A program made the position numbers and the translations under genes. A model generated the notes under the pieces. It was given only the letters and a program-made list of their open reading frames with translations, searched no databases and had not been told where the DNA came from. This document shows, one piece after another, positions 52,701 to 57,771 of a DNA stretch of 64,000 nucleotides; the first letter of the stretch is position 1; every line of letters begins with the position of its first letter. Source of the stretch: Microbacterium sp. LWO12-1.2 (lineage in GTDB: Bacteria > Actinomycetota > Actinomycetes > Actinomycetales > Microbacteriaceae); NCBI RefSeq assembly GCF_040675875.1, contig NZ_JBEGII010000001.1, positions 1,860,001 to 1,924,000 of the forward strand, given 5' to 3'.

Positions 52701-53429
52701 ATGAGCAACGACCTCCCCGAACTGCGCCGCCCCGACGGTTCCCCCCTGCGCATCCTCGCGGTCGACGACGAGCAGATGCTCACCGACCTTCTCGCGATGG
52801 CACTGCGGATGGAAGGGTGGGAGGTGCGCACGGCATCCTCCGGCCTCGAAGCGCTCCAGGTCGCGCGGGAGTTCGAACCCGACGCACTGGTGCTCGACAT
52901 CATGATGCCGGACCTCGACGGCATGGCCGTGCTCAAGCGGCTCCGCGAGTCCGGCAACCTCGTGCCCGTGCTGTTCCTGACGGCGAAGGATGCCGTCGGC
53001 GAACGCGTCGCTGGCCTGACAGCGGGCGGTGACGACTACGTCACCAAGCCCTTCAGTCTGGAAGAGGTGATCGCGCGACTCCGCGCCATCATCCGTCGTA
53101 CCGGACACGCCACCGCCGATGACGGTCAGTCGATCCTCCGCGTCGCCGACCTCACCCTCAACGAAGACAGCCACGAGGTCATGCGCGACGGCACCGAGAT
53201 CGACCTCACGGCGACCGAGTTCGAACTGCTCCGCTACCTGATGCGCAACGAGCGCCGCGTGCTGTCGAAGGCGCAGATCCTCGACCGCGTGTGGAGCTAC
53301 GACTTCGGCGGCAAGTCATCCGTCGTCGAGCTCTACATCTCGTACCTGCGCAAGAAGATCGACGCGGGACGCACCCCGCTGCTGCACACCGTTCGCGGCG
53401 TCGGCTACATGATCAAGGCGCCTCAGTGA
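52701..53429 (+). CDS. OmpR/PhoB-type response regulator
   Basis: The 242-residue protein has a receiver domain with acidic DDEQ pair, phospho-acceptor D66 in LDIMMPDLDG, threonine in LFLTAKD and lysine in YVTKPF. A winged-helix output domain at residues ~135-240 ends in TVRGVGYMI. It overlaps the kinase gene by four bases (GTGA), so the two are co-translated. The stimulus and targets are unknown. Confidence 0.95.
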   Translation: MSNDLPELRRPDGSPLRILAVDDEQMLTDLLAMALRMEGWEVRTASSGLEALQVAREFEPDALVLDIMMPDLDGMAVLKRLRESGNLVPVLFLTAKDAVGERVAGLTAGGDDYVTKPFSLEEVIARLRAIIRRTGHATADDGQSILRVADLTLNEDSHEVMRDGTEIDLTATEFELLRYLMRNERRVLSKAQILDRVWSYDFGGKSSVVELYISYLRKKIDAGRTPLLHTVRGVGYMIKAPQ

Positions 53430-54940
53430 GCACGACGGGGATGATGCGACGGCCGATGAGCCTGCAGACACGGCTCATGACCGCCGTGATCGGGTTCGTC
53501 TCGCTCATCCTCGTCATCGTCGCCGTCATCACCAGCGCGACGCTGAGCCGGACGCTCGAGGACCAGCTGGATCAGAAGCTGATCGCCAATGCCCGCGCGC
53601 TCACCTCATGGGTGGAGCGGGTATCGCCGACCCAGGCAACAGTGGACAACGTTCTCCGCGGCGAGGTGCCCCAGTCACCGGGCCTCCTCTTCGTGGTCTT
53701 CAGCCAGGTGACCGGTGCAAGCGGAGTGATCGTCTCCAGCGCCGAGGACGAGCTCAGCGGAACCATGACGGCCCTGAGCACTGTGCAGCTCACGCAGATC
53801 GCCGCTGCGCTCGGCACCGACCACGTCGCAAATGTCACGATCGATGACGTCGGCTCCTACCGCGTGGCCATCACCTCGACTCAGAGCGGAATCGCCGTCG
53901 TCACCGGACTACCCCGTGCCGACATCCAGAACCAGCTCGCGACCCTCCTCACGGTGATCGCACTGGCGACGCTCGGCGGCCTCATCCTGCTTGCCCTCAC
54001 CACGGCGGTCACCATCCGTGTCAGCCTCCGGCCGCTGCGTGCAGTCGCTGCGACGGCGATGCGTGTCGCGAATCAACCGCTCGACCGCGGCGAGGTGACC
54101 ATCACGGAGCGCATCCCGGCATCCGAGGCCGATCCCCGCACCGAGACCGGGCTCGTCGGCGCCTCGCTGAACACGCTTCTCGATCACGTGAACACCTCGC
54201 TCGCAGCACGCCAGAAGAACGAGGAGCGGATGCGGCGCTTCGTCGCCGACGCCAGCCATGAGCTGCGCACGCCACTGGCCTCCATCCGCGGATACTCCGA
54301 GCTCTCGCTCCGCGCGCTGAGCAAGCAGTCGCCGGAGGAGGCGATCGAAGGCACCACCTCGTCGCTCGAGCGCATCCAGGCGCAGTCGCTGCGGATGACC
54401 CGCCTCGTCGAGGATCTGCTGCTGCTCGCACGCCTCGACGAAGGACGAGAGCTCGTCTACGGCACCGTCGACCTGGCCCAGCTCGCCCTCGAGGGCCTCT
54501 CCGACGCCCGCCCCACGGCGATCGATCACGAGTGGAGCATCGAGGTCCCCGAAGAGCCTGTCGTGATCGTCGGCGACGCCGGGCGCATGCACCAGGTCGT
54601 CGCGAATCTGCTGGCCAACGCGCGGACGCACACGCCCGCCGGCACCGTGATCACCCTCAGCGTCTCCCAGGAGGACGACGAGGCGGTGCTGCGCGTGCAC
54701 GACAACGGACCGGGCATCGACCCCGGTGTGCGCGATGAGCTGTTCGCACGCTTCGCCCGCGCCGACACCTCCCGCGCCAGGCAGACGGGGGGCACCGGAC
54801 TCGGGCTCGCCATCGCGAAGGCGATCGTGGAGGGCCACGGCGGTCACATCACCGTCGCCAGCGAGCCCGGCGACACGACCTTCACGGTGCGGATCCCGCT
54901 GAACCCCGCCCGCAGTGCGGCGACCGGCTCCGCTTCCTGA
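53426..54940 (+). CDS. Sensor histidine kinase
   Basis: The 504-residue protein has a membrane segment near residues 22-42, an extracytoplasmic sensor of about 120 residues, a second membrane segment near 170-190, a HAMP linker, the HisKA helix with phospho-acceptor H278 in ASHELRTP and an ATPase domain (N box ANLLANARTH, G1 DNGPGID, G2 GTGLGLAIAK). It resembles TrcS/MprB-type actinobacterial kinases. The sensor sequence gives no clear ligand. Confidence 0.94.
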   Translation: MSTTGMMRRPMSLQTRLMTAVIGFVSLILVIVAVITSATLSRTLEDQLDQKLIANARALTSWVERVSPTQATVDNVLRGEVPQSPGLLFVVFSQVTGASGVIVSSAEDELSGTMTALSTVQLTQIAAALGTDHVANVTIDDVGSYRVAITSTQSGIAVVTGLPRADIQNQLATLLTVIALATLGGLILLALTTAVTIRVSLRPLRAVAATAMRVANQPLDRGEVTITERIPASEADPRTETGLVGASLNTLLDHVNTSLAARQKNEERMRRFVADASHELRTPLASIRGYSELSLRALSKQSPEEAIEGTTSSLERIQAQSLRMTRLVEDLLLLARLDEGRELVYGTVDLAQLALEGLSDARPTAIDHEWSIEVPEEPVVIVGDAGRMHQVVANLLANARTHTPAGTVITLSVSQEDDEAVLRVHDNGPGIDPGVRDELFARFARADTSRARQTGGTGLGLAIAKAIVEGHGGHITVASEPGDTTFTVRIPLNPARSAATGSAS

Positions 54941-54985
54941 CCTGGCGTTCGCGCGGTGGTCGCTGCCGCGACCGCGACTGCGACC

Positions 54986-55067
54986 GCGACGTGCAGGATC
55001 ATCGGCGACATGCAGGAGGATGTCCCAGGAGTTCCTCCTGCACGTCGCGAATCGTCCTGCAGGTCGG
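54986..55067. repeat. Palindromic repeat cluster downstream of the DUF559 gene
   Basis: Four related units lie in 82 bases: GCGACGTGCAGGA (54986), GCGACATGCAGGAGGA (55005), then the opposite-strand forms TCCTCCTGCACGTCGC (55033) and TCCTGCAGGTCGG (55055). The order is two forward and two reverse, giving nested hairpins. Bases 55011-55051 match 56061-56101 on the other side of the gene at 32 of 41 positions with equal length. Confidence 0.75.
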
Positions 55068-55080
55068 TACCGGCCGACGG

Positions 55081-55923
55081 TCAAACCGCCTCGACGCGGA
55101 CGCGCACGCGTCCGAGCGCGGCGAGGATCGCCGACTCGACGAGGGGCCACTCGTGAATGACCAGGGCGTAGTCGAACCGGAGGGTCTCCAGCCCCTGTAC
55201 GGACGCCCAGGCGTCCCGACGCAGATCCTTGTGCCGGAGTGACGGACCATCGTGGTTCTCGACCCCGTCGACCTCGAGAAGCAGCAGACCGTCGATGACG
55301 AAGTCGACCCGCCCGACATCACCGATGCTCTTCTGGCAGGCGACCAGGATACCGATGCGGTGAAGACGCAGACGGACGATGGACTCCAGGCCGCTGTCCG
55401 CATCGTTCCGGGCGAAATCCACGAGCCATCGCGCATACGTCGGCAGCCGACGGCGGATGCGCGCCCGGGCCGATGCACTGATCCTGCGCTGCCGCAGCCC
55501 CGATTCCAGTGCCGCGAAGAACGCCTCCTCACCCCGGCACTGATGCACATGGATGAGCACCTCTTCGAGCGGAGCCAGGCCGAGCACCGTGCGTCCGGTT
55601 GCGAAGTGACTCACACATCCGCAGTCCCGGTGATGCACGCGCCCGTGCGCCCCCATCCAGACGTGCGGGGCGAGGTCGGTCTCAAGCGACCAGATCCCGT
55701 GCAGACGCAGCGCCCGTGAGCAGGTCAGCGCGCCGCCATGCTCGGTTGCCGTCACGACATCCGCATCCGCCCCTCGCACAGCGAAGACGCCCTGCCGGAC
55801 TCGGAGGATGCTGCCGTCGCGAACGGCGCTTTCGAGCACACGCCGGTCGATTCCGAACTGGTGGAGAAGGGTCCCTCGCGCCACCCCGCCGTGGTGTGTG
55901 AGGACGTGGTCGAGTGTCAGCAT
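55081..55923 (-). CDS. AbiEi-like winged-helix plus DUF559 (Vsr-type endonuclease fold) protein
   Basis: The 280-residue protein has an N-terminal winged-helix part (GVARGTLLHQFGIDRRVLESAVRDG and RVRQGVFAVRG), similar to AbiEi antitoxin-like domains. Its C-terminal DUF559 domain has VDFVIDGLLLLEVDGVENH and RRDAWASVQGLETLRFDY, carrying the D, ExD and H residues of Vsr-like nucleases. The role of this common actinobacterial type is unproven. It stands alone without a toxin partner and is flanked on both sides by a 41-base palindromic repeat. The ATG at 55923 starts the conserved part; a GTG at 55950 is the alternative. Confidence 0.8.
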   Translation of the reverse strand: MLTLDHVLTHHGGVARGTLLHQFGIDRRVLESAVRDGSILRVRQGVFAVRGADADVVTATEHGGALTCSRALRLHGIWSLETDLAPHVWMGAHGRVHHRDCGCVSHFATGRTVLGLAPLEEVLIHVHQCRGEEAFFAALESGLRQRRISASARARIRRRLPTYARWLVDFARNDADSGLESIVRLRLHRIGILVACQKSIGDVGRVDFVIDGLLLLEVDGVENHDGPSLRHKDLRRDAWASVQGLETLRFDYALVIHEWPLVESAILAALGRVRVRVEAV

Positions 55924-56052
55924 CCGTCGATCATGGCGCTCGTGCGCCACCGACGATGTCTCGGGTGCGAGGAAATGTGGACATCGCGCGACCAGCCGGT
56001 TCGGTGCAGGACGGGTCCGCCCGCTCAGGCTACCAGCGGCGTGCGGGAGATC

Positions 56053-56101
56053 TCGCCGGATGCAGGAGGATCCGTGGGGAGTTCGTCCTGCAGGTCGCCA
56101 A
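56053..56101. repeat. Palindromic repeat upstream of the DUF559 gene
   Basis: TCGCCGGATGCAGGAGGA faces TCCTGCAGGTCGCC, forming a hairpin. The 41-base core 56061-56101 is the second copy of the element at 55011-55051, in the same orientation. Arms and the AGTTC block are conserved, while the eight-base loop segment varies. Confidence 0.75.
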
Positions 56102-56165
56102 ACCTCCTGCAGTCGGCGAGGCGGCAGGTCGCCAAATCTCCTGCAGTCGGCGAGGCGGCAGGTCG
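56090..56165. repeat. Two tandem 34-bp direct repeats with a partial third
   Basis: Bases 56090-56123 and 56124-56157 are identical except for one C/T change, and the first eight bases of a third copy follow. The unit begins GCAGGTCGCCAAA and contains CTCCTGCAG, so it is a derivative of the palindromic repeat next to it. The array ends 22 bases after the stop of the flanking reductase gene region and about 170 bases before the DUF559 start. Confidence 0.8.
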
Positions 56166-56187: not shown

Positions 56188-57771
56188 TCAGTAGCCGGCG
56201 AAGGCGTCGGTCGTGAGACTGTGGGCCTTCTGCAGTGCCGGCGCCAGGTCGGCGATCAGCCGCGGTGGACCCGAGATGAAGGCGTGGCGTGCGGCGAGGT
56301 CGCCGACGGTGCGCTCGAGTCCTTCTGCATCCAGACGAGCACCCTGCGCCCAGGTCCAGTGCGCGGGCAGATCGGCGGGTTCGTCCTTCGTGAACACGAC
56401 CGTGCGCACACCGGTCGCGGCGAGCTCGTCGCGGAATGCCAGCTCCGCCGCCTCGGCCGCGACATACACCAGCACCACGTCGCGCCTCTGCCCCGTCGCC
56501 TGCAGCTGCCGCAGCTGCGAGACGAACGGCGTGACACCGATCCCGGCCGCGAGCATGAGCACCGGTGTCTCACCGCGCGGCAGGATGAAGTCGCCCCAGG
56601 TTCCCGTGACGGCGAGCACGGCACCGGGCTCCGCCTCCGCGAGCGCCCGCTTGTAGCTGGACGGATGCTTCTGATCGCCGTTCTTGTAGGCGATTCGCAG
56701 CGTGGGCAGGTCGGCCGGCGCAGACACGATGCTGAACTCGCGACGGGTGCCGCGGGCATCGGGCCGGTGGTGCGGCACATCCAGTTCGAGGTACTGACCG
56801 GGCAGGAAGGCCAGCTTGCCCTTCGCGCGGAAGGTCAGCTCCTGTGCCGTGGGGGTGATGAACGCACGTCGTTCGAGAACCAGTCGCACCGAGCCACGCA
56901 GTGCGAACGCGAACGCGAGCAGGTTGCCGATCAGCAGCGCGCGCTCCTGGCCGAGCGTGAACAGTCCGGCGACGGAGATCGGCCATCCCGCGAGTAGACC
57001 GACGAGCACGGCGACGGAGAACTGCTGCCACCGGCGGGGCGGCAGCGTCAGCGGCTCGGAGAGCATGAAGGCACCGAGGAAAAGGAACGGCGACTGGAGC
57101 AGCGCGAACTGCAACGCGGTCGAGAAGTCGAAGGCGAGGTCGAACTGCTGCGCCTGCACGACCTGTCGCACGAGCGAGGTCACGAGTGCCACGACGAGGA
57201 AGAGCAGCACCACGCGCACCTTCTCGGTGCGCCACAGCACAGCGAGCCCGAGGAGCGCCACCGGGAGCGCGAGCGACGGCGTGCCGACCCACCACGACGC
57301 CGACGTCCCCAACCACTCGAAGGCGCCGAACGAGCCCACGATCGATACGACGGCCGCACCGAACGCCGCCGGGTTCAGGATGTGCCGGCCGCGCCAGGCG
57401 ATCAGATATTTCGACAGGCTCGCGAGCGCTCCCGCGACGGCGAGCCCCAGCAGCGTGGTCGGTTCGAGACCGGGGCGGAGGACGAACAGCAGGATCAGTG
57501 CCGTGACGAGAGACGACTCGATCCGCCAGGGAAGGCGGAGGATGCGCTGCACCACGGCGTCCACCACGGAGATGACCACGGCGAGCACCACGAAGGACGC
57601 GAGCATCTCGAGGGGCGTGGGCGAGACGATCACCCCCACCAGTGAGAGCAGGAAGGCGATCACCGCCAGAGCCACCAGGGCGAACAGCACCAGTCGGTAC
57701 ATCGACAGGGCACCCAGCAGAGCGAGAACGCGCTGTCGGGCTGCGGTGAATGAGGTGATCACGGGGTCCAC
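56188..57771 (-). CDS. NQR2/RnfD-like membrane domain fused to FAD/NAD reductase
   Basis: The 527-residue protein has about nine or ten membrane segments (residues ~18-320) with the NQR2/RnfD-type segment KYLIAWRGRHILNPAAFGAA. A ferredoxin-reductase-like part follows: FAD site REFSIVSAP near 350, ALAVTGTWGDF and the NAD site MLAAGIGVTPF near 430. It should take electrons from NAD(P)H and pass them through membrane flavin to the outside. A GTG start six bases after the apbE stop makes it the last gene of a three-gene flavin operon; a second GTG three codons in is possible. Confidence 0.85.
   Translation of the reverse strand: MDPVITSFTAARQRVLALLGALSMYRLVLFALVALAVIAFLLSLVGVIVSPTPLEMLASFVVLAVVISVVDAVVQRILRLPWRIESSLVTALILLFVLRPGLEPTTLLGLAVAGALASLSKYLIAWRGRHILNPAAFGAAVVSIVGSFGAFEWLGTSASWWVGTPSLALPVALLGLAVLWRTEKVRVVLLFLVVALVTSLVRQVVQAQQFDLAFDFSTALQFALLQSPFLFLGAFMLSEPLTLPPRRWQQFSVAVLVGLLAGWPISVAGLFTLGQERALLIGNLLAFAFALRGSVRLVLERRAFITPTAQELTFRAKGKLAFLPGQYLELDVPHHRPDARGTRREFSIVSAPADLPTLRIAYKNGDQKHPSSYKRALAEAEPGAVLAVTGTWGDFILPRGETPVLMLAAGIGVTPFVSQLRQLQATGQRRDVVLVYVAAEAAELAFRDELAATGVRTVVFTKDEPADLPAHWTWAQGARLDAEGLERTVGDLAARHAFISGPPRLIADLAPALQKAHSLTTDAFAGY

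Follow-up and report, generated by a model that had tools for sequence, protein, structure and literature searches.

The window, that is, the whole stretch of 64,000 nucleotides analysed here from Microbacterium sp. LWO12-1.2 (contig NZ_JBEGII010000001.1, positions 1,860,001 to 1,924,000), contains a gene for a predicted nuclease of the DUF559 family which is bracketed by two arrays of short inverted boxes, and further copies of the array are dispersed through the host genome (G000). This nuclease family of soil actinobacteria, amid its own private arrays, looks like an undescribed self-serving repeat system.

Both copies of a 41-base palindromic repeat that a preliminary description had placed on the two sides of the gene, in the same orientation and with 32 of 41 bases identical, are present (55011-55051 and 56061-56101), and they belong to larger elements. 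Specifically, a comparison of repeat families extends the pair to 53 bases (79% alike), and the 41-base repeat forms the core of a 70-base element whose four 7-base boxes are laid out as TGCAGGA-12-TGCAGGA-18-TCCTGCA-12-TCCTGCA, with box offsets 0, 19, 44 and 63 (spacing 19/25/19) and with the first two boxes facing the last two.

The encoded protein scores just under the cut-off for DUF559 (E 5e-4, 20.3 bits; cut-off 20.6), to our knowledge a domain of unknown role, and below threshold for AbiEi_4 (E 0.002), and DUF559 (PF04480) is matched by all 62 aligned homologues at E <= 0.01. An AbiEi-like DNA-binding part is predicted at about residues 7-181 and a DUF559/EDxHD-like nuclease domain at about residues 186-284. 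The nearest solved folds of the nuclease domain are 3hrl and the homing endonuclease I-Bth0305I, and the N-terminal part has the AbiEi fold (loose match to 6y8q). The residues invariant across the 62 proteins are C77, H96, H115, E189, D216, D228, H233 and D242, the last five belonging to the likely active site. The predicted product is a fusion of an AbiEi-like winged-helix part with a nuclease of the EDxHD/Vsr type in which these likely catalytic residues are intact. A Pfam scan of the same 62 members (E <= 0.01) returned DUF559, MTES_1575, two AbiEi models and one stray Erythro_esteras, and no transposase model; AbiEi models match most of the homologues, Hhe seven and a homing-endonuclease model four. 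Homologues of the window protein are present in 58 of 59 genomes of the genus. Outside the nuclease domain, the family also has a conserved Cys/His set (C77, H96 and H115 invariant, C138 in at least 90%), which might bind metal.

The positions of these features are collected in Table 1, together with the two neighbouring genes; the names histidine kinase, FNR-like, CydC-like and ClpP2, here and below, were assigned by eye, without a family search. The upstream array has one extra inverted box (56139-56145), owing to a tandem duplication of a 34-base unit at its outer end.

Table 1. Features around the DUF559 gene, in window positions (positions in the host genome, G000, in brackets; ORF, open reading frame)
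Feature	Position	Strand	Basis or remark
289-aa gene, AbiEi-like part and DUF559/EDxHD-like nuclease domain	55081..55950	-	ORF, model matches, alignment
Downstream four-box array	54992..55061 (G000:C1:1914992-1915061)		exact four-box pattern
Boxes of the downstream array	54992-54998, 55011-55017; inverted 55036-55042, 55055-55061		TGCAGGA
Upstream four-box array	56042..56111 (G000:C1:1916042-1916111)		four-box pattern, one mismatch
Boxes of the upstream array	56042, 56061; inverted 56086, 56105		box at 56042 is TGCGGGA (one mismatch)
Tandem duplication, 34-base unit	56090..56157 (units 56090-56123, 56124-56157)		units 97% alike; outer edge of upstream array
Left neighbour, histidine-kinase-like	53291..54940	+	ORF, named by eye; conserved neighbour in relatives, defines the fixed site
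Right neighbour, FNR-like oxidoreductase	56188..57771	-	ORF, named by eye; conserved neighbour in relatives, defines the fixed site

Dispersed arrays and the genes they flank

Arrays were sought in 59 Microbacterium genomes with the four-box pattern, allowing up to three mismatches. The host carries 26 TGCAGGA arrays (15 exact, 10 with one mismatch and one with two), two of them flanking the window gene and 24 lying away from it, and the 58 other genomes contain none (52 genomes) or one or two (six genomes). A chance repeat can be ruled out, given that the left and right flanks of the window gene reach a similarity of 25.5 against a maximum of 16.5 over 60 control pairs from the same locus, and that the 26 host arrays compare with no match at all for a reversed four-box control pattern across the 59 genomes.

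The preliminary description had raised the possibility of a family like the repetitive extragenic palindromic (REP) elements, with many copies and a link to DUF559 genes; the array is indeed dispersed in this way, and the co-occurrence with DUF559 genes holds with exceptions. For instance, a second box, TGCACGA, flanks another host DUF559 gene (L007) and forms arrays in four of the 59 genomes (nine in G000, six in G031, nine in G038 and two in G057). The first three of these each have a known DUF559 gene flanked by TGCACGA, whereas the single DUF559 gene inspected in G057 bears a different box. By a rough ORF call, 12 of the 26 TGCAGGA arrays lie in convergent, eight in tandem and one in divergent contexts, and five inside called ORFs, as compared with 25 convergent, 43 tandem and 21 divergent gaps of at least 100 bases in the same loci. 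Along the 4.07-Mb contig, 21 of the 26 sit past 2.29 Mb. Box types can also mix, since one array at a further host gene (L009, gene at G000:C1:3037438) has a TGCAGGA dyad nested within an outer TGACGGAGATCTCAC dyad.

The host has about nine DUF559 genes of the same kind (10 matches), most of which are, by eye, bracketed by dyads of their own sequence (L008 and L013 are less clear). In a sample of 40 genus genes (39 fetched loci and the window; L066, cut at the gene, was dropped), flanks are more palindromic than 95% of control windows on both sides for 17 genes and on at least one side for 32, and left and right flanks are alike beyond 95% of control pairs for 34 genes and beyond all 60 control pairs for 28. 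With mismatched left/right pairs as the reference, flank likeness passes the 95% level for 70 of 87 genus genes and the 99% level for 28; the corresponding figures for the order outside the genus are 16 and 11 of 25 genes. The four-box caller (at most three mismatches) finds arrays in 77 of 226 flanks versus 5 of 226 shuffled flanks, with the reservation that some three-mismatch calls resemble simple repeats, which the shuffling of 2-base blocks breaks up. Orthologues at one locus are not independent and, therefore, the flank counts overstate the number of separate cases. The gene-plus-repeat unit proposed at the outset is nonetheless borne out, with the window gene bracketed by arrays and alike flanks at most other DUF559 genes of the genus.

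Box type and protein lineage go together for the most part. More specifically, in a tree of 21 proteins, shown without support values and built only from proteins with a callable box (L163 and L029 are among those left out), TGTCGGG (six proteins), TGCATGA (four) and GATCACGGA (two) each make up one group, and TGCACGA (three) and CTGC.GATC (five) lie close together without being single clades. Only three alignment columns (13, 40 and 121) separate the box groups, which are too few for specificity residues to be claimed.

As for the arrays themselves, a selected hairpin had been suggested, and the window copy (54985-55070) does fold well as single-stranded DNA (z -6.5). However, linker positions over the 26 copies pair at 0.462 compared with 0.464 +/- 0.019 for randomly re-paired copies, and the complementary changes by which a REP-type stem keeps its pairing were not seen in these 26 arrays. 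Linkers thus pair no better than composition and, therefore, the hairpin is not what is kept; a hairpin or RNA element is rejected for the family. A search of Rfam gave only miRNA-type matches, far under the gathering scores. While box constancy among the 26 copies is partly imposed by the search pattern, a GC dinucleotide four bases ahead of the inner box is not so imposed, and it is kept in 51 and 52 of 52 half-arrays (measured at inner boxes only), which suggests GCNNNNTGCAGGA as a unit. Judged by these patterns of conservation, the elements look like putative protein-binding arrays.

Fixed sites, module differences and gene losses

Within each box group tested, the members keep their synteny across species, and at one site single-linkage clustering by neighbours brings together 21 members, with no fewer than five box types among them. 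Therefore, the genes keep fixed addresses and it is the module type that changes; a freely hopping gene, as the idea of a small mobile module would have allowed, is not supported by these syntenic groups.

A pair of closely similar genomes, G071 and G072, makes the difference between modules visible. The flanks of their DUF559 site are 98.6-99.5% identical over 18.7 kb, with a TGCATGA-flanked gene on one strand in G072 and, in G071, a gene 54% identical to it on the opposite strand, with arrays of the GCCGACAC...TGTCGG type. Around a clpP2-like gene the two genomes are 98.8-99.4% identical and a TGCATGA array is present only in G072, the interval at the array position measuring 211 bases in G072 and 7 bases in G071. 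A search of 458 kb of G071 gave no TGCATGA array and only two GCCGACAC-type arrays, both adjoining the gene. Because gene, strand and box differ between near-identical flanks, the array-gene-array module acts as one unit, which is different in the two genomes at a fixed site, and the remote array differs in step with it, although a comparison of two genomes shows a difference and cannot tell gain from loss.

Family labels were given by eye to the arrays at 29 clpP2-like sites and in 30 linkers of a CydC-like transporter gene. The clpP2-like site bears a TGCAGGA array in G000, a TGCATGA array in six genomes, TGTCGGA in G027, TGTCGGG in G233, another repeat in one genome and no array in 19. Genes of the TGCATGA type (at least 77% identical to L019) are present in seven of the 29 genomes, and five of the six TGCATGA arrays fall among these (Fisher p 0.001). 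The exceptions are G141 (array without gene) and G219 and G220 (gene without array). Likewise, the site is free of arrays in at least six genomes that possess a TGTCGGG-type gene. In the host, a TGCAGGA array lies in frame within the CydC-like linker (L003, G000:C1:2638430-2638499); across the 30 linkers, from different species, at least three array families occur in frame (in 14, 10 and 3 linkers), with another or none in three. Arrays of the TGCAGGTC type are found in the linkers of G232, G221 and G222, whose DUF559 genes carry TGCAGGTC box flanks, yet G185, also with a TGCAGGTC-flanked DUF559 gene, has a linker array of another family.

At the window site, comparison with the 29 best-scoring relatives shows the gene in 10 and its absence in 19. 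The latter include the nearest relatives G084 and G176 (90-91% over the gene on the FNR side) as well as G154, whose best DUF559 genes elsewhere are 52%, 46% and 35% identical, respectively. Five relatives have a gap of at most 45 bases. Sites with a single array and no gene, which the preliminary description had named as a check, were recognised by eye in G084, G176, G005 and G154; the box is TGCAGGA only in G154, which also retains a gene remnant, and other boxes are present in the rest.

TGCAGGA arrays are still found in genomes that lack the gene (15 in G084 and 10 in G154), with 1.2 box mismatches per array in both as against 0.46 in G000 (Mann-Whitney p 0.014 and 0.017). In 11 of the 13 orthologous arrays of G000 and G084 (one with a 1-base gap and one with a tandem copy were left out), differences affect 10 of 308 box positions and 51 of 462 linker positions (p 6e-5), and nine of the ten box changes are off-consensus in G084 (p 0.02). 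Box sequence thus appears more degenerate where the gene has been lost, but G000 is at an advantage through the cut used in the search and through a consensus taken from its own arrays and, therefore, this evidence is supporting and not decisive. For the 26 G000 arrays as a whole, 13 have a counterpart in G084, three are missing there (one leaving a stub), two flank the gene, one is a tandem copy found only in G000 and seven could not be judged.

Interpretation and comparison with known systems

We consider it probable that the window gene serves a dispersed repeat family as its resident enzyme, in a system resembling REPIN/RAYT that uses an unrelated, free-standing nuclease of the homing type. 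We infer that the protein binds, cleaves and copies the arrays. The winged-helix part would bind the boxes as a dimer or tetramer (two or four protomers per array), the nuclease domain would nick or cut the array, and its repair would draw on a further array or on an incoming array-gene-array module. Such repair would spread the arrays, keep the boxes alike and let modules replace each other. A wider proposal, which we put forward only tentatively, is an undescribed class of homing modules in Actinomycetota, in which AbiEi-like winged-helix-EDxHD nucleases in array-gene-array cassettes, each with its own target box, would compete for a few fixed chromosomal sites and write their own target arrays into favoured positions of the genome; a switch from one allele to another would then set off genome-wide turnover of arrays.

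It is unlikely, in our view, that the protein is instead a DNA-binding regulator or chromosome organiser with the arrays as operators, its nuclease fold being rarely used or kept for repair and the arrays being constrained by a host function and not mobile in themselves. The invariance of the five residues of the likely active site speaks against such a role, even if the AbiEi fold and model matches, the array contexts, the inheritance of most of the array copies that could be judged and the constraint on the boxes, similar to that on binding sites, would suit it. A box that differs between species is equally hard to reconcile with a regulator, as are the different gene and array modules at one site in G071 and G072 and the different array families borne by the same clpP2-like and CydC-like sites in different species.

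A defence module, with DUF559 alleles of different specificity competing at fixed sites and arrays that are regulatory or self-marking, would account for the many alleles in the synteny cluster of 21 and for the AbiEi, Hhe and homing-endonuclease model matches, but we regard it as rather improbable: a defence gene would not be expected to have arrays at distant places, one of which lies in frame within a transporter-like gene, and no toxin or methylase partner was spotted by eye among the ORFs at 50-61 kb, where no family search was made. Ordinary bidirectional terminators or hairpins that flank the gene by coincidence deserve hardly any credence. GC-rich dyads do lie at gene ends and the window copy folds well, but gene-private boxes, linkers without pairing beyond composition and species-restricted families with fixed spacing amount to a family structure that makes this very unlikely. 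Neither a regulator nor a defence gene accounts at once for the private boxes, the remote arrays and the differences between modules.

RAYT genes are described as resident, vertically inherited and flanked by their own repeats (PMC2817692, PMC8049555). Similarly, the resident nuclease gene studied here lies between two repeats of a dispersed family (arrays and not strict REPs), its own palindromic element being present on both sides and in more copies elsewhere, with one repeat family per enzyme lineage and enzyme genes that pass vertically. The enzyme fold, however, is unrelated (EDxHD/Vsr nuclease with an AbiEi-like part). The RAYT hallmark, as given in PMC2817692, is an IS200/IS605-type His-hydrophobic-His motif with a nucleophilic tyrosine, whereas among the 62 members there is neither a tyrosine among the invariant residues nor a match to a transposase model. 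Further differences are the four-box array without linker covariation, the copy number (at most 26, while REPs usually exceed 100 copies according to PMC2817692) and the fact that two closely similar genomes carry unlike modules at a single fixed site.

With the EDxHD homing endonuclease I-Bth0305I, the protein shares the catalytic fold, a matching residue set and a long putative target, the target of I-Bth0305I being nearly 60 bp and bound by a dimer according to PMC3943268. Unlike I-Bth0305I, the window gene is not within an intron or intein, nor inside another gene, its likely target copies stand on both sides of it and around the genome, and the DNA-binding part is AbiEi-like. AbiEi antitoxins (type IV toxin-antitoxin systems) resemble it in the N-terminal fold and the model matches, but here this part is fused to a nuclease, and no AbiEii was recognised by eye beside the window gene, a toxin family search not having been made. 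Compared with the Vsr endonuclease and 3hrl (NGO0050), there is an extra DNA-binding part and no sign of mismatch repair in the context.

Among the papers listed in a literature search, mostly without subscription papers, there was no account of DUF559 or AbiEi-nuclease genes with repeat arrays. If the REPIN/RAYT-like reading is true, the way of life known from REPIN-RAYT systems would have arisen twice, independently, this time with an enzyme of homing-endonuclease kin. DUF559 also (i) gains a testable role, as a nuclease whose likely target code sits beside its gene, (ii) offers many natural protein-box pairs for reading how such a protein picks its DNA and (iii), through the natural losses and the G071/G072 pair, makes the persistence of such repeat populations, an old question, directly testable.

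A minor feature of the family concerns the leaders of its genes. The motif CTGCACA, often followed by TCCACA, is present in 27 of 113 5' flanks of DUF559 genes versus 2 of 113 3' flanks, at a median of 71 bases ahead of the start (e.g. L016, L168 and L187).
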